A stretch of 53,539 bases of DNA, from contig JADGPU010000009.1 in assembly GCA_017882305.1 (NCBI GenBank), positions 1 to 53,539 of the forward strand, read 5' to 3'. The stretch comes from Bacteroidales bacterium (GTDB taxonomy: Bacteria; Bacteroidota; Bacteroidia; Bacteroidales; VadinHA17). Below, piece by piece: positions 5,858-45,397 of this stretch (position 1 is its first letter; the number at the start of each line of letters is the position of its first letter). The notes below the pieces were generated by a model. The model made no database searches. It had not been told where the DNA came from and saw only the letters and a program-made list of their open reading frames with translations. A program made the translations under genes and the position numbers.

Positions 5858-6871
5858 CTAGTATTTATCTATCAACTTGTACAATTCAGTCAGATCAGGA
5901 GTAAGGATGATCTCAGTCCTTCTGTTCTTCTGACGAGCATCAGCAGTATTGCGCTCATCTACAGGCGAATATTCACTTCTGCCAGAGGCAGTTAACCGTT
6001 TTGCATTAATGTTTGATCCTTCGAGCAGCACTCTTATAACTGTAGTTGCCCGCTTTACGCTCAAGTCCCAGTTGTCCTTTAACTGGCTTTTACCCGGATT
6101 ATAAGGAACATTATCGGTATGTCCTTCTATCATTACCTGAATATCCGGATTTTTTTCAAGAACACCTGCCAGTTTTTTCAATGCATTTTTTCCGTTGGCA
6201 TCAATATCCCAGCTGGCTGATCTGAACAGGAGTTTTTCATCAAGGGAAACATATACTTTGCCATTCTTCATTGTTACTGTGAGTCCATTGTTCTCAAAAC
6301 CGAGAAGAGCTTCAGATACTTTGCTCTTCAGATCCTGTACAATCTTTTTCTGTGTATCAAGTATTTTTTCAAGTTCAGCCAGTCTTGCATTCCTTTTTTC
6401 CAGTTCAAAGGTAAGCTGGTCGAGTGTTGCTTTCTTTGTATCAAGGTTTTGCCCAAGGTTTCGAAGCAGGTCCTCTTTCTTTTGAAGGTTTTCCTGGGCT
6501 GCCTGAAGCTCTGTAAGTAGTTTTTGTGTCTCTTTAACATTCCCCTTGATCAGATCTTCCTGGGCATTCTGTAATTCAGTATATTTAGTGGAGATTTTAT
6601 TATAATCATCTATAGCCTTGTCGCGTTCATTCTGTACAGATGTTATCTCCTGCTGAACTGTACCAGCTTCTTTTTCAAGAGAGGCCAGCTTAGCTTTAAG
6701 TTCTTTGTTTTGCATTTCTAGCCCGATGTTGTCGGTTTTGAAAGCATCCCTCTCTTTCATGAATTGTTTGCTGGTATCCTGCAAATCGCTGAACTTCTTT
6801 GCGGAAACACATGATATTGAAAAAATCACCAAAGCAAAAAATCCCAGGATGTAAAAAATTAATCTGTTCAT
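5858..6871 (-). CDS. OmpA-family lipoprotein with coiled coil
   Basis: 337 residues. The signal sequence ends in a lipobox-like FSISC, with Cys21 as the likely lipidation site. Residues about 30-190 are heptad-rich, Lys/Glu/Gln-rich coiled coil. Residues about 205-330 form an OmpA/MotB peptidoglycan-binding domain (VMIEGHTDNVPYN, then DLSVKRATTVI, LTASGRSEY and NRRTEIIL). Such proteins anchor the outer membrane to peptidoglycan. It stands alone, convergent with the repeat element at 5608-5810 and divergent from dxs. The family is secure; no specific role (motility or efflux) is indicated by neighbours. Confidence 0.9.
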   Translation of the reverse strand: MNRLIFYILGFFALVIFSISCVSAKKFSDLQDTSKQFMKERDAFKTDNIGLEMQNKELKAKLASLEKEAGTVQQEITSVQNERDKAIDDYNKISTKYTELQNAQEDLIKGNVKETQKLLTELQAAQENLQKKEDLLRNLGQNLDTKKATLDQLTFELEKRNARLAELEKILDTQKKIVQDLKSKVSEALLGFENNGLTVTMKNGKVYVSLDEKLLFRSASWDIDANGKNALKKLAGVLEKNPDIQVMIEGHTDNVPYNPGKSQLKDNWDLSVKRATTVIRVLLEGSNINAKRLTASGRSEYSPVDERNTADARQKNRRTEIILTPDLTELYKLIDKY

Positions 6872-6997
6872 AACTTCAATTTGATTTTATATATAACATC
6901 TGCACTACATTAAAATTGCATCTCACCCATCGAATTCCGAAACAAAAATAAGAAAATCCCGGGTATGCTTCAGCAAACACTCAGGAATAATAATTGT

Positions 6998-7005
6998 TAT
7001 ATTTG
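6998..7005 (+). promoter_or_regulatory. Candidate -7 box for dxs
   Basis: TATATTTG matches the Bacteroidota -7 consensus TAnnTTTG. It places transcription start near 7010, downstream of an earlier in-frame ATG at 6994 and upstream of the ATG at 7033. No clear -33 TTG is seen 20 nt upstream, so this is tentative. Confidence 0.45.
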
Positions 7006-7032
7006 CTGGTTATTTTTTTTAACCATCTCTTA

Positions 7033-8934
7033 ATGGACAGGGAAGAGAATTTACTCTCTAAGATAAATACTCCTGAAGATCTCCGGAAACTAGATCCAGG
7101 CGACCTTGTACAGGTGAGTTCTGAACTCCGCCAGTTTATTATAGATGTTGTATGCAACAACCCCGGACATCTAGGAGCAAGCCTGGGTGTCATTGAGTTA
7201 ACCGTAGCTCTTCACTACGTCTTTAATACTCCATATGATAAAATTATCTGGGATGTCGGACATCAGGCTTATGCACATAAAATACTTACAGGACGAAGGG
7301 ATAAATTCTCAACAAACAGAAAATATAAAGGAATAAGTGGTTTCCCTAAGATGGCTGAGAGTGATTATGACGCATTTGGTACTGGTCACTCCTCAACATC
7401 TATATCGGCAGCTCTCGGTATGGCGGTTGCTGCAAATCGTAAAGGAGAGAGCCGGCATGTAGTAGCAGTTATTGGTGATGGTGCAATGACAGCCGGTCAG
7501 GCTTTCGAAGGTCTCAATAATGCCGGAATTGGGAAATCCGATATACTGGTGATTCTTAACGATAATAATATTGCTATCGATGCCAATGTCGGTGCTCTGA
7601 AGGAATATCTGCTTGACATAACAACCAGTAAAACATATAACAGGTTTAAGGACAGGGTATGGAAAATCCTGGGAGTATTCGGGAAACTCGGGCCAAATGC
7701 AAGGACACTTGCTGCCCAGCTTGAAGCCGGAGCCAAAAGCACAATACTCGACAGGAGCAATCTTTTTGAAGGGCTCAATTTCAGATATTTCGGTCCTATT
7801 GACGGTCACGATGTCCTGCACCTGACAAGGGTCCTCGAAGACCTGAAGAGAATTCCCGGACCAAAACTGCTTCATTGCCTTACGGTTAAAGGGAAGGGAT
7901 TCAAACAGGCTGAAGAAGACCAGACTACATTCCATGCTCCTGGCATGTTCGACAAAAAAACAGGTGAGATAATCAGTACCTCTGTCGCGGATTCACCACT
8001 TTCCTACCAGGAAGTTTTCGGAAAAACAATTCTCGAACTTGCAGAGCTGAATAAAAAGATAACCGGCATAACGCCAGCTATGCCCACAGGCTGCTCCCTG
8101 AATATTATGATGAAAGAGATGCCGGAAAGAACGTTTGATGTCGGTATTGCAGAGCAGCATGCTGTTACATTTTCTGCAGGGCTTGCCACACAGGGAATGA
8201 TACCATTCTGCAATATCTATTCATCATTTATTCAGAGGGCATACGACCAGATAATACACGATGTTGCTCTTCAGAATCTTCACGTGGTATTTTGTATTGA
8301 CAGAGGCGGTCTTGTCGGTGCCGATGGTGCCACACACCACGGGTTTTTCGATATGGCATTTATGCGCAGTATTCCTAATATGGTCGTCTCTGCTCCTATG
8401 GATGAGATTGAACTCAGGAATCTGATGTACACCGCTCAGCTTGAGAAAAACATGTTTCCTTTTTCTATCCGATATCCACGCGGACGCGGAATATTTTCTG
8501 ACTGGAAAAAAACATTCCTTGAAATTGAAATAGGTAAAGCACGTCAGATAAGTGAAGGCAGCGACATGGCGGTTTTATCTATTGGTCATCCCGGAATAAT
8601 TGTTGCTTCTGTTGTGAGTAAACTGGCTAAAGAAAATATCTCAATTGCCCATTATGACATGAGGTTTGTCACTCCCATAGATACGGAAGTCCTTAATTCC
8701 GTTTTTAAAAAATTCAGGTATATAATTACAGTCGAGGACGGAGTGCTGAAAGGAGGATTTGGAAGTGCTGTTATTGAATTCATGTGCGACAAAGGGTACA
8801 ACTCTGAAGTAAGGCGGCTCGGTATACCCGACTATTTTGTAGAGCATGGCACCCAGGAAGAACTATACAGGGAGTGCGGATTCGATGCAGAGGGGATAGA
8901 ATTGGCAATCAGAGAAATTCTTGTCAGAAAATAA
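7033..8934 (+). CDS. dxs: 1-deoxy-D-xylulose-5-phosphate synthase
   Basis: 633 residues from the ATG at 7033, the usual DXS length. It condenses pyruvate and glyceraldehyde-3-phosphate with thiamine diphosphate, the first step of the MEP isoprenoid pathway, in the cytoplasm. Visible motifs are GHLGASLGVIELTVALHYVF at the N-terminus, the ThDP site GDGAMTAGQAFEGLN with NDNNIAIDANVGAL, the central IAEQHAVTFSAGLA (catalytic Glu) and the transketolase Pyr segment. The longer reading frame from 6994 adds 13 hydrophobic residues absent from the family, and a -7 box overlaps that start, so 7033 is preferred. uppP at 11840-12619 uses the downstream isoprenoid product, though the genes are not linked in an operon. 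Confidence 0.97.
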   Translation: MDREENLLSKINTPEDLRKLDPGDLVQVSSELRQFIIDVVCNNPGHLGASLGVIELTVALHYVFNTPYDKIIWDVGHQAYAHKILTGRRDKFSTNRKYKGISGFPKMAESDYDAFGTGHSSTSISAALGMAVAANRKGESRHVVAVIGDGAMTAGQAFEGLNNAGIGKSDILVILNDNNIAIDANVGALKEYLLDITTSKTYNRFKDRVWKILGVFGKLGPNARTLAAQLEAGAKSTILDRSNLFEGLNFRYFGPIDGHDVLHLTRVLEDLKRIPGPKLLHCLTVKGKGFKQAEEDQTTFHAPGMFDKKTGEIISTSVADSPLSYQEVFGKTILELAELNKKITGITPAMPTGCSLNIMMKEMPERTFDVGIAEQHAVTFSAGLATQGMIPFCNIYSSFIQRAYDQIIHDVALQNLHVVFCIDRGGLVGADGATHHGFFDMAFMRSIPNMVVSAPMDEIELRNLMYTAQLEKNMFPFSIRYPRGRGIFSDWKKTFLEIEIGKARQISEGSDMAVLSIGHPGIIVASVVSKLAKENISIAHYDMRFVTPIDTEVLNSVFKKFRYIITVEDGVLKGGFGSAVIEFMCDKGYNSEVRRLGIPDYFVEHGTQEELYRECGFDAEGIELAIREILVRK

Positions 8935-24805: not shown

Positions 24806-25460
24806 TGTTATTTTGATATTGCAATGGATTCCTTATATACTTTATTTGAGACCTGCCTGGCGTATAACGGATGCCTAGTTCCAGTACCGGTCTGAAATAT
24901 ATCGTACTGTTATAGGGGAACATTGAGATAAGATTCATTTTTGCCAAAGCTGAAAATGGTAGTTTTTTCTTCATTGAAAAATCATACCCAAAACCTCCGC
25001 CTATAGTTATAAGAGCATAATTATAGCCTGCGAGTTTAATAACAGAAATATTTCCAATATCATCCACCTTATAAGTTGTTCCTCCAAGAAAAGTCCGGCT
25101 AAAACCAGGACCAATTGAAAACTCAGACATAAATCCTGTATATCTGGTTCTTCTCATCACCCACTCGGCAGTCAGGTATAAATTATCGTGGAAATCAGGA
25201 TGATGATACCAGTTTAGATTTCCTGAAATAAATCTCCCTTTTTTAAAACATCTGATAAGTTTTTGATTTTTAAACACATGTACATTTACATAGTTAAGCG
25301 GGAACTCTATACCTGTGCTTATTCCTGGATAGATGAGAGAACTATTGTAAGAAAACTTCAGATTAAAGTGACGGGTAGATGAATCATTAATTGAGTCACA
25401 TTGAGAATGACATAATGTACAATAGAGTAAAGCTAATATTGAAATCGCGGTTTTCAGCAT
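24783..25460 (-). CDS. Hypothetical outer-membrane beta-barrel protein
   Basis: 225 residues with a signal peptide (about 1-19, ending CHSQ). The rest alternates aromatic and hydrophobic residues with Gly and Asn turns, including GPGFSRTFLGGTTY and ALITIGGGFGYDFSMKKKLP, as in small outer-membrane barrels. It overlaps the isomerase-like gene upstream by 7 nt and the hydrolase gene downstream by 23 nt, so it is translationally linked to both. Function unknown. Confidence 0.7.
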   Translation of the reverse strand: MLKTAISILALLYCTLCHSQCDSINDSSTRHFNLKFSYNSSLIYPGISTGIEFPLNYVNVHVFKNQKLIRCFKKGRFISGNLNWYHHPDFHDNLYLTAEWVMRRTRYTGFMSEFSIGPGFSRTFLGGTTYKVDDIGNISVIKLAGYNYALITIGGGFGYDFSMKKKLPFSALAKMNLISMFPYNSTIYFRPVLELGIRYTPGRSQIKYIRNPLQYQNNNERSISL

Positions 25461-26878
25461 ATCCTTTTAAAACCAATATTCAGAAGCTCTGATAATTTGC
25501 TGATACGGGAAGATATATGTCCTATTCCGATGGCACAGTGATGTGAAGGCCCTGCTTTTGACCAGCTTTCGATGAATTCCCGTACAGATAAAGGAAATTT
25601 ATAACGGCTGTTGGTATTCCCGATCTGAAGGGTCGGTCCCTCTACAGAATAACCCTGAGCTGTAAGAAGAGTTATATTTCCTTCTCCCCCCTGACATACA
25701 GAAAGAAGAGTAACCGGGCCTTCTGCAACTTTCATTTGTATTGATAATCCCTTCCCGGGCTTACCATGAAAAACAGGAAGAGGAACCAGCCCAACTTTTC
25801 CGGCTGCAATTTTATAATGTGCCGGCCCATCATGTCCCATCAGAATAATATCATTATTAAAATCCATACCATAGAATTCTGAGAACGAGCCACCGGCATT
25901 AAATGTATCCATTATCTTCATAGCAAGGACATTTTTGACTTCGCATTCACTGGCAACGGGAATATTTCTGCCTGTCAGTAAAGTCATCCCGGGTATTAAG
26001 GTGGTAACAATTTTTTCATAATCCGTATCACCTTCTCCTTCATAATAATATGCCAAAGCTCTTAGCCTGAATTTTTCTGCCAGCCGGTCGAGGGCAACTG
26101 AGCTTATGGCTGTTTGTTCCAAATCGTTGGCTGAACATTCATCTGAAACAATAAACCAATCTCTGAACTTGCCGATCTTTGATCTGAGCTCACCTCCTGA
26201 AACATTTTCTCTTAGCTTCTTCAAAGTGCCGAATTCAATAAGCTCGAAATGACAACCGAAAGCTGCAGAGAGCATCGTAATATCTGTGTAAACATCTAAC
26301 ATTCCGTTATAGTAATGACCCATTACTCCCACCCTGCTGTTTTTAATAACCTTCATTACATAACAAGCATCAATCCACTCCTGGATTTCATCCCATACAT
26401 ATTCTTCATCAATATATCCGGTTATCAGGTGATATTTTATACCTGCCCTGTTAAATACACTTGCCAGTTCAGGAGTAACACAGCTCTGGCAATATGATAA
26501 CCATTCACCGGTCATCTTTCCACGATCTCCGATTAAATTGAATTTCTCATAATCAATTGCTCCTGTCGGTTGCAGATTCAGAACAATTACAGGACAACTG
26601 ACTCGTTGAATCAATGGTAAGACATTATGCGACAATGCATAAGTTGAAATATTAAGGATTATCAGATCAATTCCGCTTTTCTGGAATAATTCTGCTGCTC
26701 CTATAGCTTTATCAGGGTTATCAACCATTCCTGCATCAACAATTTCTGTGTTCGGATGGCCGAGGCGATCTTTTATCCTCAGCTGAAACAATTTCAATTT
26801 GTCAAGTAATCCGTCAAACTGCGACCAGTATGTGTCGAGCCCAATTCCAAAGAGTCCGATTTTAATTTTGTCTTCCAT
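25454..26878 (-). CDS. L-arabinose/L-fucose isomerase-family protein
   Basis: 474 residues from the ATG at 26878 (an alternative ATG at 26896 adds six residues). The N-terminal Rossmann-like domain begins KIKIGLFGIGLDTYW. The central part contains LTGRNIPVASECEVKNVLAM, and a Glu followed by MGHDGPAHYKI may supply metal ligands. The C-terminal part ends WSKAGPSHHCAIGIGHISSR, a His-rich segment also found in sugar isomerases. The fold matches the fucose/arabinose isomerase superfamily, which interconverts aldoses and ketoses with Mn2+. The exact sugar is not predictable. It is the first gene of the cluster running to 21901. Confidence 0.82.
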   Translation of the reverse strand: MEDKIKIGLFGIGLDTYWSQFDGLLDKLKLFQLRIKDRLGHPNTEIVDAGMVDNPDKAIGAAELFQKSGIDLIILNISTYALSHNVLPLIQRVSCPVIVLNLQPTGAIDYEKFNLIGDRGKMTGEWLSYCQSCVTPELASVFNRAGIKYHLITGYIDEEYVWDEIQEWIDACYVMKVIKNSRVGVMGHYYNGMLDVYTDITMLSAAFGCHFELIEFGTLKKLRENVSGGELRSKIGKFRDWFIVSDECSANDLEQTAISSVALDRLAEKFRLRALAYYYEGEGDTDYEKIVTTLIPGMTLLTGRNIPVASECEVKNVLAMKIMDTFNAGGSFSEFYGMDFNNDIILMGHDGPAHYKIAAGKVGLVPLPVFHGKPGKGLSIQMKVAEGPVTLLSVCQGGEGNITLLTAQGYSVEGPTLQIGNTNSRYKFPLSVREFIESWSKAGPSHHCAIGIGHISSRISKLSELLNIGFKRIC

Positions 26879-27013
26879 TGTAATTATGTCTTTCATGGGA
26901 GAAAATAATATTAACGTAAACAGGATTAATTTATGTTTATATAAGCTGACCCAAATTTAGCAGTATTTCAAACTTTAACTTCAATTATTCACAAATCTCA
27001 TTCGAGTGATTGA

Positions 27014-30712: not shown

Positions 30713-31075
30713 AAGCTATTATTTATTAGCCCCATTTTTTACATTCCGAACAAATATGGAAAAAAGTCGATAATAATAAAACTTATTTTCACTTTAATTT
30801 TGCAATTTAGATATTTCCCTTGTCACAGATTCACATTTTAATCAACTTACAAATTCAAAACAGCAACAAAAACGTGGAACTCATTTAAGAAATAAAGTCA
30901 GCAATTTAATAAAGAAATTGTCATGAAGTCCTGATCTCTGCAATCAATTTGTTGTATCAATCCTTAAACTGTAGAAATACTTTTTTTAAACCCATTGACA
31001 GAAATATTCAGATAGTCAGGTAGTTGTAAAGGAAATTTAGTATGGATTTAATATCTTTGTAATCTCTTAAATTTT

Positions 31076-31375
31076 TTAGCAGCAGTTTGATTTTGAATCA
31101 GAACAGCCGCATGTAGGTTCTGAGTTCCTCAGTATCCCGTTAATAATACCTGCGGCACAGCCAACACCTGAATTTACCGTTATTGCCTGTACCTGACAGT
31201 TTAGTGCACATGCACCGCATTCCATACAATAATCTCGTCTTACGATATGAGCTTTTTTCCCTGAAAGTTCAAACACACCGTGAGGGCATACCTTTAAACA
31301 CATTCCACATCCGTTGCAAGTAGCTTCACACAAATTAAGTGTGACCACATCAGGAAGATACATTAAATCTTTCAT
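31076..31375 (-). CDS. hgcB: Mercury methylation ferredoxin HgcB
   Basis: 99 residues from the ATG at 31375, 10 nt after the hgcA stop; an earlier in-frame ATG at 31405 would overlap hgcA by 20 nt. Two 4Fe-4S motifs are present: Cys20, 23, 26 and 30 (CNGCGMCLKVCP) and Cys50, 53, 56 and 60 (CMECGACALNCQ). An extra Cys73 (GVGCAAG) and a terminal pair Cys98-Cys99 follow, the features that separate HgcB from ordinary bacterial ferredoxins. HgcB is thought to reduce the corrinoid of HgcA and to pass Hg(II) via its cysteines. Position directly after hgcA is canonical. Cys89 and Cys91 add a further possible thiol site. Last gene of the operon. Confidence 0.95.
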   Translation of the reverse strand: MKDLMYLPDVVTLNLCEATCNGCGMCLKVCPHGVFELSGKKAHIVRRDYCMECGACALNCQVQAITVNSGVGCAAGIINGILRNSEPTCGCSDSKSNCC

Positions 31376-31385
31376 AAGCCTATTA

Positions 31386-32417
31386 TTAAATAAATTTCCC
31401 AACAACCATTAAAATAGTACCAATGAGGGCAAATCCTATCTGAAGTGGTACCGAGATCTTCATCTCTTTTTTGACACCCGACAATGATGTAAAGGTTGAT
31501 GAACCGGTAAAATTCATAGCCAGGAAGGAGGATATAGCCGTAATAATGAGAAACCACGATATTATTTCAAAAACATTACCACCTGTAAATTTTAAAAATA
31601 TAAGAATGAGAAAGACCAGTACCCCTGCGTAAAATCCCTTTAACGAAAAATGCCGGCCGGGTATATATGGAAGAAACATTGGTGTAATGACTATCCCTGA
31701 AAAATATGCAAGAAACACTTTCAATATACCAGGCCCTCCTTCACCTGAAAAATCTTTATAAGAAAAGCCTTTACTGCTTACGCCGGATATTAAAAAGATA
31801 ACTGCCATTGCTCCCAGCAGATAAAATTTTCCATATATAAAATCATTGGGAATGAGCTTTATACGGTCTTTAAACCCGAAAGTGACTCTCCTCATTTCCT
31901 TATCAGCTCTGTATCCATCTCTGATAAATCTTTTAATATCAGATGCACGAACAGGGCCATAATGAACATTAAAACCGGTCTCCTCTTTCACCTTATGAGC
32001 GGCAACTCCTGTGGCCCCTAGTTGTGGCAGGATCAGCCGCTTGTGATTTACAAATTTTTCAAGAGAAACTAATTTTATCCTGTTGACAAGTTCTATTGTA
32101 CCAAATGTTCCTTTCCCGGCAGCACACCACACATTGACACCTTTAGTATCCAGTACCAAAATCCAACCGTCCAAGCCGGAAAGGTTTTTGCGAAGATTAT
32201 CGAATGTAAGTTTGTAGTTTGCGGTTACAAATACATCGGATTCCTGATCGGGATTACCAAATGCATAGAGGCCGGGGCTAATCCTGTAATTATCACGGTT
32301 GATTCCCCAACGGACCATAACAGCACCCATGAAATCTTTAAAATTGATTCGGGTGGAGACAAGTGGAATGACATCGTCAGAGATTGAAACATTACCTTCT
32401 AAAAATGAGTGCTTCAT
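31386..32417 (-). CDS. hgcA: Mercury methyltransferase corrinoid protein HgcA
   Basis: 343 residues. The cobamide-binding domain (about 30-190) contains the HgcA cap-helix motif NVWCAAGKGTFG, with Cys98 in the place of the cobalt-ligating cysteine. Further downstream are ILPQLGATGVAAHKVKEETG and FNVHYGPVRASDI, shared with the corrinoid domain of CFeSP. The C-terminus has five transmembrane helices (about 197-213, 231-251, 261-279, 284-303, 322-342), which CFeSP subunits lack. HgcA transfers a methyl group from methylcobamide to Hg(II), giving methylmercury, at the inner membrane. The start is one nucleotide from the arsC stop. Identification rests on the motif, topology and pairing with hgcB. 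Confidence 0.96.
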   Translation of the reverse strand: MKHSFLEGNVSISDDVIPLVSTRINFKDFMGAVMVRWGINRDNYRISPGLYAFGNPDQESDVFVTANYKLTFDNLRKNLSGLDGWILVLDTKGVNVWCAAGKGTFGTIELVNRIKLVSLEKFVNHKRLILPQLGATGVAAHKVKEETGFNVHYGPVRASDIKRFIRDGYRADKEMRRVTFGFKDRIKLIPNDFIYGKFYLLGAMAVIFLISGVSSKGFSYKDFSGEGGPGILKVFLAYFSGIVITPMFLPYIPGRHFSLKGFYAGVLVFLILIFLKFTGGNVFEIISWFLIITAISSFLAMNFTGSSTFTSLSGVKKEMKISVPLQIGFALIGTILMVVGKFI

Positions 32418-32418
32418 A

Positions 32419-32835
32419 TCAGATTAAAAAATTGTTGTAAAACTTGTAAAATGTAGATTTTATTTCATCTCTTATCCTCCTGAACTCATTCATAATCTGC
32501 ATCTCTGTCCCTTTGAAATTCGAAGGATCTTCAAAACTAAAATGCAGGCGATGTTTCACTTTTCCCAGAAAGACAGGACATGCTTCATTAGCATCATCGC
32601 ATACTGTTATAACATAATCCCACTCATCATCAAGATATTGGCTTACGTTTTTAGGGGTGTTCTGACTGATATCAATACCAGCTTCACCCATTACTTTGAC
32701 TGCATTGGAATTAACCTTGGATGCCGGAAATGTTCCCGCAGATTTGACCTCAATATTACTGTTGAATGACTTTAAAAAGCCTAGTGCCATCTGGCTGCGG
32801 CAACTATTGCCGGTACATAAAATAAGTATCTTCAT
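32419..32835 (-). CDS. arsC: Arsenate reductase, thioredoxin-coupled (low-MW PTP type)
   Basis: 138 residues. The P-loop CTGNSCRS holds nucleophile Cys7, Cys12 and Arg13. The redox pair Cys79 and Cys86 (VITVCDDANEACPVF) has the seven-residue spacing of Cys82/Cys89 in Staphylococcus-type ArsC. FEDPSNF supplies the general-acid Asp. The enzyme reduces arsenate to arsenite with thioredoxin. It lies between arsR and hgcA (one nucleotide between stop and hgcA start), so expression is shared. No arsenite exporter gene is in the window, so arsenite efflux must be elsewhere or this enzyme serves another role in the operon. Confidence 0.9.
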   Translation of the reverse strand: MKILILCTGNSCRSQMALGFLKSFNSNIEVKSAGTFPASKVNSNAVKVMGEAGIDISQNTPKNVSQYLDDEWDYVITVCDDANEACPVFLGKVKHRLHFSFEDPSNFKGTEMQIMNEFRRIRDEIKSTFYKFYNNFLI

Positions 32836-32861
32836 ATTCTTAATAATTTGAAAATTTCAAT

Positions 32862-33197
32862 CTATTTCCAATCAAAAGTTACAGATATATTAATATCGTT
32901 TATAAATTTTTCTACCACCTTTTTTAGCTCCTGTATATTCTTGAGATTTAAACAATAGCAGGTTTTCACCCCTTCCGTCGTACCTTGAATCAAGCCTGCA
33001 TCCTTTAATTCTTTTAGGTGCTGATTTACCGTGGTCCTTCCAAGAGGAAGCTCATCGGCAAGATCACCTGTAATACAGGTTTTTGTTTCAGCAAGGTATT
33101 TCAAAATTGCCAGACGGGCCGGATGGGCCAAAGCTTTAAACAGGGTCGAACAATTCTGGAGATCAGGGCTGAACAGTTCACTTTTTGTATATGCCAT
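32862..33197 (-). CDS. arsR: ArsR/SmtB-family repressor
   Basis: 111 residues, a winged helix (FKALAHPARLAILKYLAETK, then PLGRTTVNQHLKELKDAGLI for the recognition helix). It is first in the arsR-arsC-hgcA-hgcB operon, 26 nt before arsC. The classic CVC metalloid motif in the alpha3 helix is absent. Instead cysteines sit at 16, 41, 80 and 82 (CITGDL, TCYC), which could form a different thiolate site. Two palindromes directly upstream are likely its operators, so it probably represses itself and the mercury genes. The inducing metal or metalloid is not predictable. Confidence 0.9.
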   Translation of the reverse strand: MAYTKSELFSPDLQNCSTLFKALAHPARLAILKYLAETKTCITGDLADELPLGRTTVNQHLKELKDAGLIQGTTEGVKTCYCLNLKNIQELKKVVEKFINDINISVTFDWK

Positions 33198-33213
33198 GAC
33201 AATTAAATATTTG

Positions 33214-33227
33214 ACGTAAATATACGT
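33214..33227 (-). promoter_or_regulatory. Candidate ArsR operator 1, overlapping -7 box
   Basis: ACGTA-AATA-TACGT is a palindrome with 5-bp arms, 17 nt upstream of the arsR ATG. Read on the minus strand it contains TATATTTA, one mismatch from the Bacteroidota -7 consensus, so repressor binding would cover the promoter. Confidence 0.65.
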
Positions 33228-33242
33228 TATATTTTAATATGG

Positions 33243-33254
33243 CGTATATATACG
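33243..33254 (-). promoter_or_regulatory. Candidate ArsR operator 2
   Basis: CGTATATATACG is a perfect 12-bp palindrome, centred 28 bp from operator 1 and sharing the TATACGTTA flank with it. Repetition of a TACGT core at near-whole helical turns supports a cooperative repressor site. Confidence 0.65.
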
Positions 33255-43153: not shown

Positions 43154-45397
43154 CTATTTCTTTTCTAAACTCCAGCCTCCTTTTAGTCCGAAAATGAACC
43201 AGGCAAGAGCAACTGTGCCGGAAGCAAAAATTGTATCCCCGATCACTCGCAGCCATTTTAATGTTTGTAGTGCCGGCTGGTGAAGAAATTCAGCTGAACG
43301 GGCATACCATAAGCCTTCTTTTACGCTTGCGACAGTCTGTGCCAGTCCTATTGGAAGTACACTTATAAGTACCATTGCTGTAAGACCTATATTAATACTC
43401 CAGAATGCGAACTTTATCCACCGCTCTTTCCATATAGCCTCTTTATTCATATCGCGGAGAACGAAAAGCATAAGTCCGATACCGAGCATGCCATAAACAC
43501 CAAATAAGGCAGTATGTCCGTGTACAGGTGTCGTATTCAGTCCCTGCATATAGTAAAGCGCAATAGGAGGATTAATCAGAAATCCAAAGATACCGGCGCC
43601 GACAAGGTTCCAGAAAGCAACTGCTATAAAGCAGTAAACGGGCCATTTATAGGCTTTTATCCATGTTATGCTCCTGCTGATCTTCACATTGTCCCATGCT
43701 TCAAAACCCATAAGAACAAGAGGTACTACTTCTAGTGCACTGAAAGTCGCACCAAGCGCCATAATGGCTGTTGGTGTACCCGTGAAATAGAGATGATGAA
43801 ATGTGCCAAGTATGCCACCTGACAAAAATACAATTGTAGAGAAAAGTACAGCTGTGGTTGCAGTAGTTGCTTTTAGTAATTGCAGCCTTACAAACAGGAA
43901 AGCGACAACAACAGCTGCAAATACTTCGAAGAATCCCTCAACCCAGAGGTGAACAACCCACCAGCGCCAGTACTCTGCTATTGCAAGATTGGTTTGTCTT
44001 CCCCACATTAGTCCTGCTCCATAAAAACCTGCAATTGCTATTGTAGATATCAGAAATAATGAAAGTAGGCTCCTGCTTTCTGATTTCTGCTTTAATGCCG
44101 GCCAGATAGCACGTCCCATAAGCAGAAGCCAGATTATAAGTCCTACAAAAAGAAATATCTGCCAGAACCTTCCAAGATCGACATATTCATATCCCTGGTG
44201 ACCGAACCAGAAATTCTGTATATAGCCAAGTTTTTGCATTACGCCTAACCATTGACCGGCCAGCGATCCAAGAACTATCACCAGTAATGCGCCAAAGAGG
44301 AAATTGACACCAAGCTTCTGAAACTTCGGTTCAGTGCCTGATATAGCCGGTGCATAGTATAAGCCCGTTGCAAGCCATGATGTAGCAATCCAGAAGATAG
44401 CTATTTGAATATGCCAGGTTCTTGAAATGGAATATGGCAATAGCTTTGCCAGAGGTATTCCATAGAACGCCTGACCTTCAACACCATAGTGTGCAGTAAT
44501 GACACCCATTATTACCTGAACAAGAAGTAGCGCGGAAACGACCCAGAAGTATTTTATCGTAGCTTTTTGCGAAGGAGTCTGAGTCTCTTTTAACAAAGGA
44601 AATGCCAATGGCATTTTGTCAGCCTCTTCATCCCGTCGACGTGCATAATACCAGACCATTAATCCAATTCCGGCTATCAGGACAATAACACTGAACCCTG
44701 TCCAGAGCAATAGGGATCCTGTTGGTCTGTTACCAACAAGTTCTTCTGATGGCCAGTTATTGGTATAAGTGATTGACTGGTTCGGACGTTCTGTAACACA
44801 AGCCCATGATATCCAGAAAAAGAAATTATTAAGCAGAGGCACCCTGTTTGGATCTTTCAGTGAGTTTTCAGGAATGCTATATGAGTTCCTCAGACCGGCC
44901 AGGGCAGGATCATTTGTAAACAACCCTCCATAGAACTTACTGTTTGAAGCTATTGCCTCTGCCCTCAGCTCTGAAACGGTAAGAATTCCCGTTGCAGGAT
45001 CATAGGTGTTTTTGCGCAGTTCTTTCTGCAGCAATATTTTCAGAAAGGCCTGTCGCTCTTCACTTAATTCTTTATATGGCTTGCCATCCAGTTGTAAAGC
45101 AAGCTTGTCGAGAATAAAAACAGCTTCCTTATGCAGCCAGTCGGCACTCCAATCAGGAGCCTGGTAAGCACCATGTCCCCATACAGTCCCAATTTCCTGA
45201 CCACCCATGGACTGCCAGACATTCTGACCATCTTTTATGTTCTGTCCGGTAAACAATACTGTCCCATCAGGCGTGATCACCTTTGCAGGAACAGGAGGAG
45301 CCTGTTTGTAGATTTCTCTCCCAAAAAAAAGCAGAACTGAGAAAGAGACTATTATTACTACGATAAAACCAATCCAGAGTTTTTTTGTTTTCATCAT
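43154..45397 (-). CDS. norZ: Quinol-dependent nitric oxide reductase (qNOR)
   Basis: 747 residues, the length of single-subunit qNOR. The N-terminal periplasmic extension (GQNIKDGQNVWQSMGGQEIG) is fused to a 12-helix heme-copper oxidase-like core. Heme and FeB ligand segments are HIQIAIFWIATSWLATGLY, HLWVEGFFEVFAA (with Glu residues), FHHLYFTGTP and HGHTALFGVYG. It reduces two NO to N2O with quinol at the inner membrane, here most likely for NO detoxification since no other denitrification genes are in view. It is downstream of the hemerythrin-like gene, separated by 40 nt, and is probably transcribed from the promoter at 46009-46039. Confidence 0.95.
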   Translation of the reverse strand: MMKTKKLWIGFIVVIIVSFSVLLFFGREIYKQAPPVPAKVITPDGTVLFTGQNIKDGQNVWQSMGGQEIGTVWGHGAYQAPDWSADWLHKEAVFILDKLALQLDGKPYKELSEERQAFLKILLQKELRKNTYDPATGILTVSELRAEAIASNSKFYGGLFTNDPALAGLRNSYSIPENSLKDPNRVPLLNNFFFWISWACVTERPNQSITYTNNWPSEELVGNRPTGSLLLWTGFSVIVLIAGIGLMVWYYARRRDEEADKMPLAFPLLKETQTPSQKATIKYFWVVSALLLVQVIMGVITAHYGVEGQAFYGIPLAKLLPYSISRTWHIQIAIFWIATSWLATGLYYAPAISGTEPKFQKLGVNFLFGALLVIVLGSLAGQWLGVMQKLGYIQNFWFGHQGYEYVDLGRFWQIFLFVGLIIWLLLMGRAIWPALKQKSESRSLLSLFLISTIAIAGFYGAGLMWGRQTNLAIAEYWRWWVVHLWVEGFFEVFAAVVVAFLFVRLQLLKATTATTAVLFSTIVFLSGGILGTFHHLYFTGTPTAIMALGATFSALEVVPLVLMGFEAWDNVKISRSITWIKAYKWPVYCFIAVAFWNLVGAGIFGFLINPPIALYYMQGLNTTPVHGHTALFGVYGMLGIGLMLFVLRDMNKEAIWKERWIKFAFWSINIGLTAMVLISVLPIGLAQTVASVKEGLWYARSAEFLHQPALQTLKWLRVIGDTIFASGTVALAWFIFGLKGGWSLEKK

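Follow-up and report, generated by a model that had tools for sequence, protein, structure and literature searches.

A 53,539-nt stretch of a Bacteroidales genome (contig JADGPU010000009.1; the whole stretch analyzed is referred to as the window) carries the mercury methylation genes hgcA and hgcB behind arsR and arsC, which encode an ArsR-type repressor and a relative of arsenate reductase. Judging from gene order and profile matches across the genus, the slot between arsC and the arsenite pump gene acr3 accommodates two alternative methylation cassettes, hgcAB and arsM, the latter encoding arsenite methyltransferase. We consider it rather probable that hgcAB in this predicted ars operon, which lacks acr3 and would be induced via ArsR by arsenite or a thiol-loving metal, constitutes the metal(loid) methylation step of an arsenic-induced detoxification. 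HgcAB is the source of methylmercury in food webs, and its exchange with arsM at one locus, under partly shared regulators and predicted operators, makes its native function directly testable.

hgcAB and arsM alternate between arsC and acr3

HgcA above the profile cut-off was found in 17 of 117 genomes of the family, 16 of which, the window's own genome included, belong to the window's genus; one further genus genome (G067; genomes are designated G, loci L) contains hgc remnants only. In 12 other genus genomes hgcB is immediately followed by acr3; 11 of these 12 also have arsC immediately upstream of hgcA, with G042 (truncated arsR and arsC) and G046 (short hgcB match) included. Where members of the genus lack hgcAB, the open reading frame (ORF) between arsC and acr3 encodes ArsM in all three cases tested (326-330 bits to NF008823, cut-off 263). 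Across the 62 genus genomes, the arsC-acr3 slot was occupied by hgcAB in 11 and by arsM in 18, and never by both. Genome-wide, ArsM of at least 59% identity was present in 19 of the 62 (broken in G062) and hgcAB, whole or as a remnant, in 17; no genome had both. ArsM matches of 32-36% were counted as absence (G030, G031, G035, G043, G045, G051, G069, and G073, four of which are hgcAB genomes), and weak acr3 matches in G054 and G073 were excluded from the counts. Among the 42 genomes with arsC or acr3, 16 contained hgcAB (remnants included), 19 arsM, and seven neither, again without overlap. Fisher's test for this exclusion gave p = 2e-6 for the 42 and p = 6e-4 for all 62 genomes, neither value being corrected for kinship.

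The arsR-arsC-arsM-acr3 operons of the genus (e.g., those of G048 and G061) have the same backbone as the hgcAB operons and the same slot for a methylation gene, and their arsC is 53-73% identical to that of the window. They differ in the cassette itself: ArsM is S-adenosylmethionine-dependent and belongs to another protein family, whereas HgcAB consists of a corrinoid-type membrane protein and a ferredoxin. In trees of the flanking proteins, hgcAB and arsM operons are interleaved, with seven switches for Acr3 and five for ArsC. The species tree was built from DXS, which was matched in 62/62 genomes, because rpoB remained without a match in 10 of the 62, including the window's own. On the DXS tree, hgcAB requires 11 changes, at least six of them on starred branches (shuffled mean 15.2), and the alternation of hgcAB with arsM requires seven switches.

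Part of this exchange maps to a single chromosomal address, which has a ctpA/deaminase block on one side and a permease/hydrolase block on the other (in some genomes only one of these flanks is on the contig). There, hgcAB is found in the window, in G035-G039, G042, G045, G046, and G068, and as remnants in G067 and G069. The same address is taken by arsM in G086, by arsR-arsC-acr3 in G030, and by arsC with an hgcA stub in G059, whose arsM operon is located on another contig.

A probable deletion of acr3 downstream of hgcB

What is left of acr3 in the window is a 60-nt stub on the minus strand (30993-31052), collinear without gaps with the first 20 acr3 codons at 68-75% identity. Compared with six relatives, its start codon is gone and an in-frame stop is present; the place is also marked by a weak translated match with three of five Acr3 queries. 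The DNA that follows (30768-30991, minus strand) is 80% identical, over 225 aligned positions, to DNA of G035 that begins within the last 28 nt of acr3 and continues behind the gene, which puts the deletion junction at 30992/30993. The simplest reading of this alignment is that a single internal deletion removed acr3, and the cluster in the window is probably the remainder of an arsR-arsC-hgcA-hgcB-acr3 operon. The first-pass annotation, made from the letters of the window alone, had presented a complete four-gene arrangement; the four genes are indeed intact, but they are best read as a five-gene operon minus acr3. The divergence of the stub, to 68-75% identity, shows that the loss did not happen very recently.

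Decay of the same operon was also seen at other loci: L173:4490-5918 (G067), L172:7106-8217 (G069), and L330 (G059) keep remnants of hgcA, hgcB, or acr3, with arsC still open.

Predicted operators upstream of arsR

Two palindromes precede arsR, a distal one (CGTATATATACG, 33243-33254) and, 28 bp from it, a proximal one (CGTATATTTACG, 33215-33226), and both are predicted operators. The segment singled out by the first-pass annotation ends at 33254, which is also the end of the distal palindrome. Upstream regions were compared for 15 of 18 hgc loci, all but those of G068, G069, and G084. The distal palindrome is kept before arsR in relatives, and both are retained in nine of 10 genomes with this ArsR type (window included), at a spacing of 26-28 bp and with up to 1-2 letters changed, whereas the surrounding DNA varies; G067 has one site only. 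The earlier view of an arsR-led arrangement is supported. In the window's own genome, CGTATWTWTACG is confined to the two sites just described and one position inside a reading frame; the third copy of CGTATATATACG (C153:36350) was dropped as a regulatory site on account of that reading frame. A scan of the window allowing up to one mismatch returned four matches versus 0.35 expected.

A second ArsR type is preceded by the element GTCGTATGTTTGCGAC, or a one-base variant of it, in five of five hgcAB operons, and the arsR genes of two arsM operons, those of G033 and G061, are preceded by it or by such a variant as well. The arsR-arsC-acr3 operon of G030, which has no hgcAB, carries the palindrome pair of the window with up to one letter changed. 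The operator scan covered loci L107-L156, many of them incomplete. Since the elements recur in some arsM or acr3 operons while most arsM operons have neither, the regulation of hgcAB and arsM operons is, as far as predicted operators tell, common in part.

Promoter-like sites of the sigma-70 kind (15 versus 11.2 expected) and terminator-like sites (four versus 1.9) in the region were near chance. At L162, L166, L168, L170, and L171, the second predicted operator, upstream of arsR, overlaps TATGTTTG, a match to TAnnTTTG, the consensus of the Bacteroidota promoter box.

The four genes of the cluster

On the minus strand, arsR (32862-33197), arsC (32419-32835), hgcA (31386-32417), and hgcB (31076-31375, counted from ATG) are arranged head to tail, separated by 26, 1, and 10 nt, and the coordinates bear out the order and spacing reported by the first-pass annotation. 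All four genes are under apparent constraint when compared with four acr3-bearing relatives (nonsynonymous to synonymous rate ratio, omega, 0.04-0.17), with the synonymous rate dS often near or above 1 and the average including time that preceded the loss of acr3.

HgcA (343 aa), a membrane corrinoid methyltransferase, scored 427.6 bits against NF040863 (equivalog cut-off 275), and HgcB (99 aa), a two-cluster ferredoxin, 115.7 bits against NF040864 (equivalog cut-off 99); the earlier assignment of both thus withstood comparison with curated profiles. The cap-helix consensus of HgcA is N(V/I)WCA(A/S)GK, and the window's protein has NVWCAAGK, with Cys98. This cysteine is kept in 10/10 aligned rows, and N, W, C, A, A, G, and K are common to all 10; N-V-W occurs in the window and seven of nine relatives, N-I-W in the rest (V96 is invariant in the residue table because the I/V difference comes one position earlier, at 94). 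Five hydrophobic stretches in the C-terminal part, within residues 193-339, were recognized by hydropathy, which agrees with the five membrane helices annotated before; the structure model is of low confidence overall (predicted local distance difference test score 52.8, from 10 sequences). HgcB contains all the cysteines ascribed to it, that is, two 4Fe-4S motifs (20/23/26/30 and 50/53/56/60), Cys73, and the terminal pair Cys98 and Cys99. HgcA residues 19-168 also match the gamma subunit of the corrinoid iron-sulfur protein (CFeSP; 2h9a, E 3.6e-12), whereas the WCAAGK cysteine and the five hydrophobic stretches are features of HgcA. An assignment as CFeSP subunit was rejected on the profile scores (427.6 bits for NF040863 versus 74.6 for the acetyl-CoA decarbonylase/synthase gamma model). 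The nearest named relatives are titled Bacteroidales or Bacteroidia metagenome-assembled genomes, in keeping with the Bacteroidota-like setting perceived from the letters alone.

ArsR (111 aa; Cys16, Cys41, Cys80, and Cys82) is a repressor of the ArsR/SmtB family, passing NF033788 with 68.7 bits (subfamily cut-off 55), which covers the winged-helix domain. E. coli-type ArsR/SmtB proteins bear a CxC metal box in the recognition helix; the window's protein lacks it, the sequence there being CITGD with a single cysteine. In an alignment of 13 ArsRs from 13 hgc or hgc-remnant loci, Cys41 and Cys82 were invariant. ArsC (138 aa; Cys7, Cys12, Cys79, and Cys86) aligns with the arsenate reductase 1jl3 (E 1.2e-25), with the P-loop Cys7 and the redox pair Cys79/Cys86 in register, and exceeds the cut-off of Pfam LMWPc (76.1 bits). 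Its cysteines are invariant in nine of nine aligned rows from hgc or hgc-remnant loci, and it is the sole TIGR02691 match of its genome.

hgcAB and ars genes outside the genus

A same-strand arsC, acr3, or arsM in the vicinity was recorded for 28 of the 80 nearest named HgcA loci, and arsR alone for 12. Outside the genus, ars-linked hgcA was found in 23 of 74 named loci, in differing gene orders and in phyla including Bacteroidota, Ignavibacteriota, Bacillota, Spirochaetota, Chloroflexota, Planctomycetota, Verrucomicrobiota, Kiritimatiellota, and Margulisiibacteriota. ArsM was searched for in the genomes of 50 of the 74 loci, chosen by hand (23/23 ars-linked, 10/11 arsR-only, and 17/40 ars-free), and was above the cut-off in one of 23 with ars-linked hgcA versus eight of 27 others (p = 0.028); five of the 50 genomes had sub-cut-off matches of 170-197 bits only, and if these are counted, the figures become 3/23 versus 11/27. 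A single group of 16 rows (support 98) in the HgcA tree comprises the genus together with G096 (L027-L032, which are the same contigs as genus genomes, were left out). In the cultured strain Acetivibrio mesophilus N2K1 (L072), the gene order is arsR-hgcA-hgcB-arsC-like.

Some neighboring arrangements were recorded in passing. In G013, of the same family, L174:5245-6393 encodes an HgcAB-like fusion of 382 aa with two ferredoxin motifs, below the cut-off of NF040863 (159.9), and adjoins a small methyltransferase-like ORF (6398-7069). In other hgcAB-ars clusters of Bacteroidales (L047:3965-4965 and L048:1897-2896), a small cysteine-bearing protein and a CcdA/DsbD-like membrane protein were recognized by eye just before hgcA; they are a possible thiol partner. 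ArsC-ArsM fusions in a single reading frame occur at L048:471-1865 (by hidden Markov model) and L117:676-1905 (by family search), and an operon of Ignavibacteria (L036:3363-4424) has, by eye, a nitroreductase-like ORF between arsR and arsC.

What hgcAB may do in an ars operon

According to the mechanism proposed here, the four genes would be expressed as one transcript. ArsR, which is predicted to bind the twin palindromes, would repress the promoter through them until As(III), or a similar metal, on its cysteines releases it. ArsC would reduce arsenate, As(V), to arsenite, As(III), and HgcA would hand on the methyl group of its corrinoid to a metal that HgcB binds through its cysteines. For the HgcAB family, Hg(II) is a known methyl acceptor. 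As the relatives have arsM in the same slot, hgcAB is likely switched on by arsenic and may share a related detoxification job; alternative cassettes in the same slot, behind partly the same predicted operators, make a metal(loid) methylation step of the arsenic-induced response the most likely role of the pair. The induction by metalloids suggested earlier is consistent with these features and has a published precedent in Pseudodesulfovibrio mercurii ND132, reported in the available part of PMC10349881. If hgcAB is such a step, arsenic exposure is predicted to set the methylmercury output of these Bacteroidales. That HgcAB would be a corrinoid-based counterpart of ArsM, with methylation of arsenite (or of arsenic and other thiol-bound metals) as its native job and methylmercury as a by-product, is a bolder proposal, which we hold to be unlikely.

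Several observations weigh against hgcAB being a metal(loid) methylation step of the arsenic-induced response. The genome of the window (92.4% complete) gave no match to acr3 or arsB, an arsenite pump being found neither in the operon nor elsewhere in that genome; it also gave no ArsM above the cut-off (best 39 versus 263 bits) and no match to the ArsM of the genus, so that an arsenic route would want a known exit. With 127.6 bits, ArsC stays under the equivalog cut-off of TIGR02691 (174.3) and is accordingly called a relative of the thioredoxin-type arsenate reductases and not a certified member. Most arsM operons scanned have a further divergent ArsR and neither predicted operator. The hgcAB loci of G031, G040, G066, G084, and G096 share no flanking gene with the window, the G068 genome retains hgcAB but gave no match to arsC or acr3, and 40 of the 80 nearest named HgcA loci have no ars gene nearby (some contigs are too short to tell). 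Nor is the exclusion of the two genes strict, for L048, a Bacteroidales locus outside the genus, combines arsM and hgcAB in a single gene cluster. In a kinship-corrected pair test, about 2-3 pairs were informative, all in the expected direction (median p 0.25-0.5, a number that cannot reach significance); the exclusion is therefore not established beyond shared descent. The available parts of published surveys add that four of 35 hgcAB contigs had an ars gene and none arsR (PMC10349881), and that arsR was not close to hgcAB in the genomes surveyed (PMC12953829).

The position in the slot fits a shared task, the methylation of metals or metalloids, and also fits a recombination slot with alternative cargo. 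Under the latter explanation, to which we give a serious chance, if short of an even one, hgcAB is a passenger module for ordinary Hg(II) methylation, the arsC and acr3 flanks swap cargo by homologous recombination, and the exclusion reflects alternative alleles of one locus. The repeated exchange between module and flanks in the ArsC and Acr3 trees is in its favor, as are the hgcAB copies that do without ars genes (G068 and half of the 80 named loci, 40/80) and the outcome of the kinship-corrected test. It does not readily account for the genome-wide absence of ArsM (at least 59% identity) in all 17 genus genomes with hgcAB, four of which have a 32-36% match elsewhere; these ArsM-free genomes include G045 and G068, whose hgcAB stands outside an arsC-acr3 operon. 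Nor does it readily explain that linkage to ars genes recurs across several phyla in different gene orders, or that part of the predicted operators is common to both operon kinds. Methylation as part of the arsenic response is placed somewhat ahead of the passenger explanation because ArsM is absent genome-wide and the ars linkage recurs in many phyla.

The loss of acr3 could also mean that the remaining arsR-arsC-hgcAB genes are on their way out and have no present function; the truncation of hgcA in G069 and its near-complete loss in G067 would agree with this. We regard such decay as improbable for the window, since its four genes are intact and constrained (the low omega being an average to which time preceding the loss contributes), acr3-bearing relatives have end branches of a range that includes those of the window's ArsC (0.12) and HgcA (0.10), and the drifted stub speaks for a loss that is not very recent. 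Still further down the scale, and very doubtful, is the service of the ArsC-like enzyme in the mercury pathway that the first-pass annotation had offered; recruited to it, the enzyme might, for instance, act on HgcA or HgcB as their thiol or redox partner. The gap of 1 nt between arsC and hgcA and the persistence of arsC in a cluster that misses acr3 would suit it. The idea is not supported, as operons that lack hgcAB, both arsC-arsM-acr3 and arsC-acr3, contain the same ArsC family; moreover, the ArsC cysteines are kept in all nine aligned hgc or hgc-remnant rows, and G031, G045, and G096 have arsR-hgcAB without an adjacent arsC.

Other features of the window

Elsewhere in the window, a NorB-like nitric oxide reductase with a cytochrome c-like domain is encoded at 43157-45397, in a presumed anaerobe, and a protein of 480 aa at 25457-26896 has no Pfam match at 1e-6.

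Comparison with known systems

Adjacency to ars genes and control by ArsR are already in print; the new point is the position of hgcAB in the slot of the arsenite methyltransferase. Compared with the first-pass annotation, the acr3 stub downstream, the operator pair as such, and the swap with arsM in relatives are additional, whereas the novelty it attached to the four-gene arrangement is less than claimed, as a 2020 paper (PMC7438021, in its available passages) had already described hgcAB with arsC and acr3 on its flanks. No report of an exchange between hgcAB and arsM was found by titles and abstract openings in the literature searched, which lay mostly outside subscription papers.

As far as the available parts of these papers go, hgcAB flanked by arsC, acr3, arsM, or arsR occurs in diverse putative methylators (McDaniel et al, 2020, PMC7438021), and 14 of 31 confirmed methylators have arsR no more than three ORFs upstream of hgcA (PMC10349881). 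What the regions described by McDaniel et al share with the present system is the position of hgcAB beside arsC and acr3, and in some of those genomes ArsR-like genes and arsM are also in the vicinity; the alternation of hgcAB and arsM in one slot, shared operators, exchange in place, and the deletion of acr3 are not described in the passages of that paper available. ArsR-like control of hgcAB in P. mercurii ND132 was reported by Gionfriddo et al (2023), as related in PMC10349881, PMC12953829, and PMC13362967, and an arsenic-linked change of hgcAB transcription in this strain is given in PMC10349881. On the strength of these partial accounts, ND132 and the window have in common an arsR upstream of hgcAB, for which a response to arsenic is reported in ND132; the window differs in having arsC between arsR and hgcA, an acr3 originally behind the pair, and two 12-bp palindromes before arsR.

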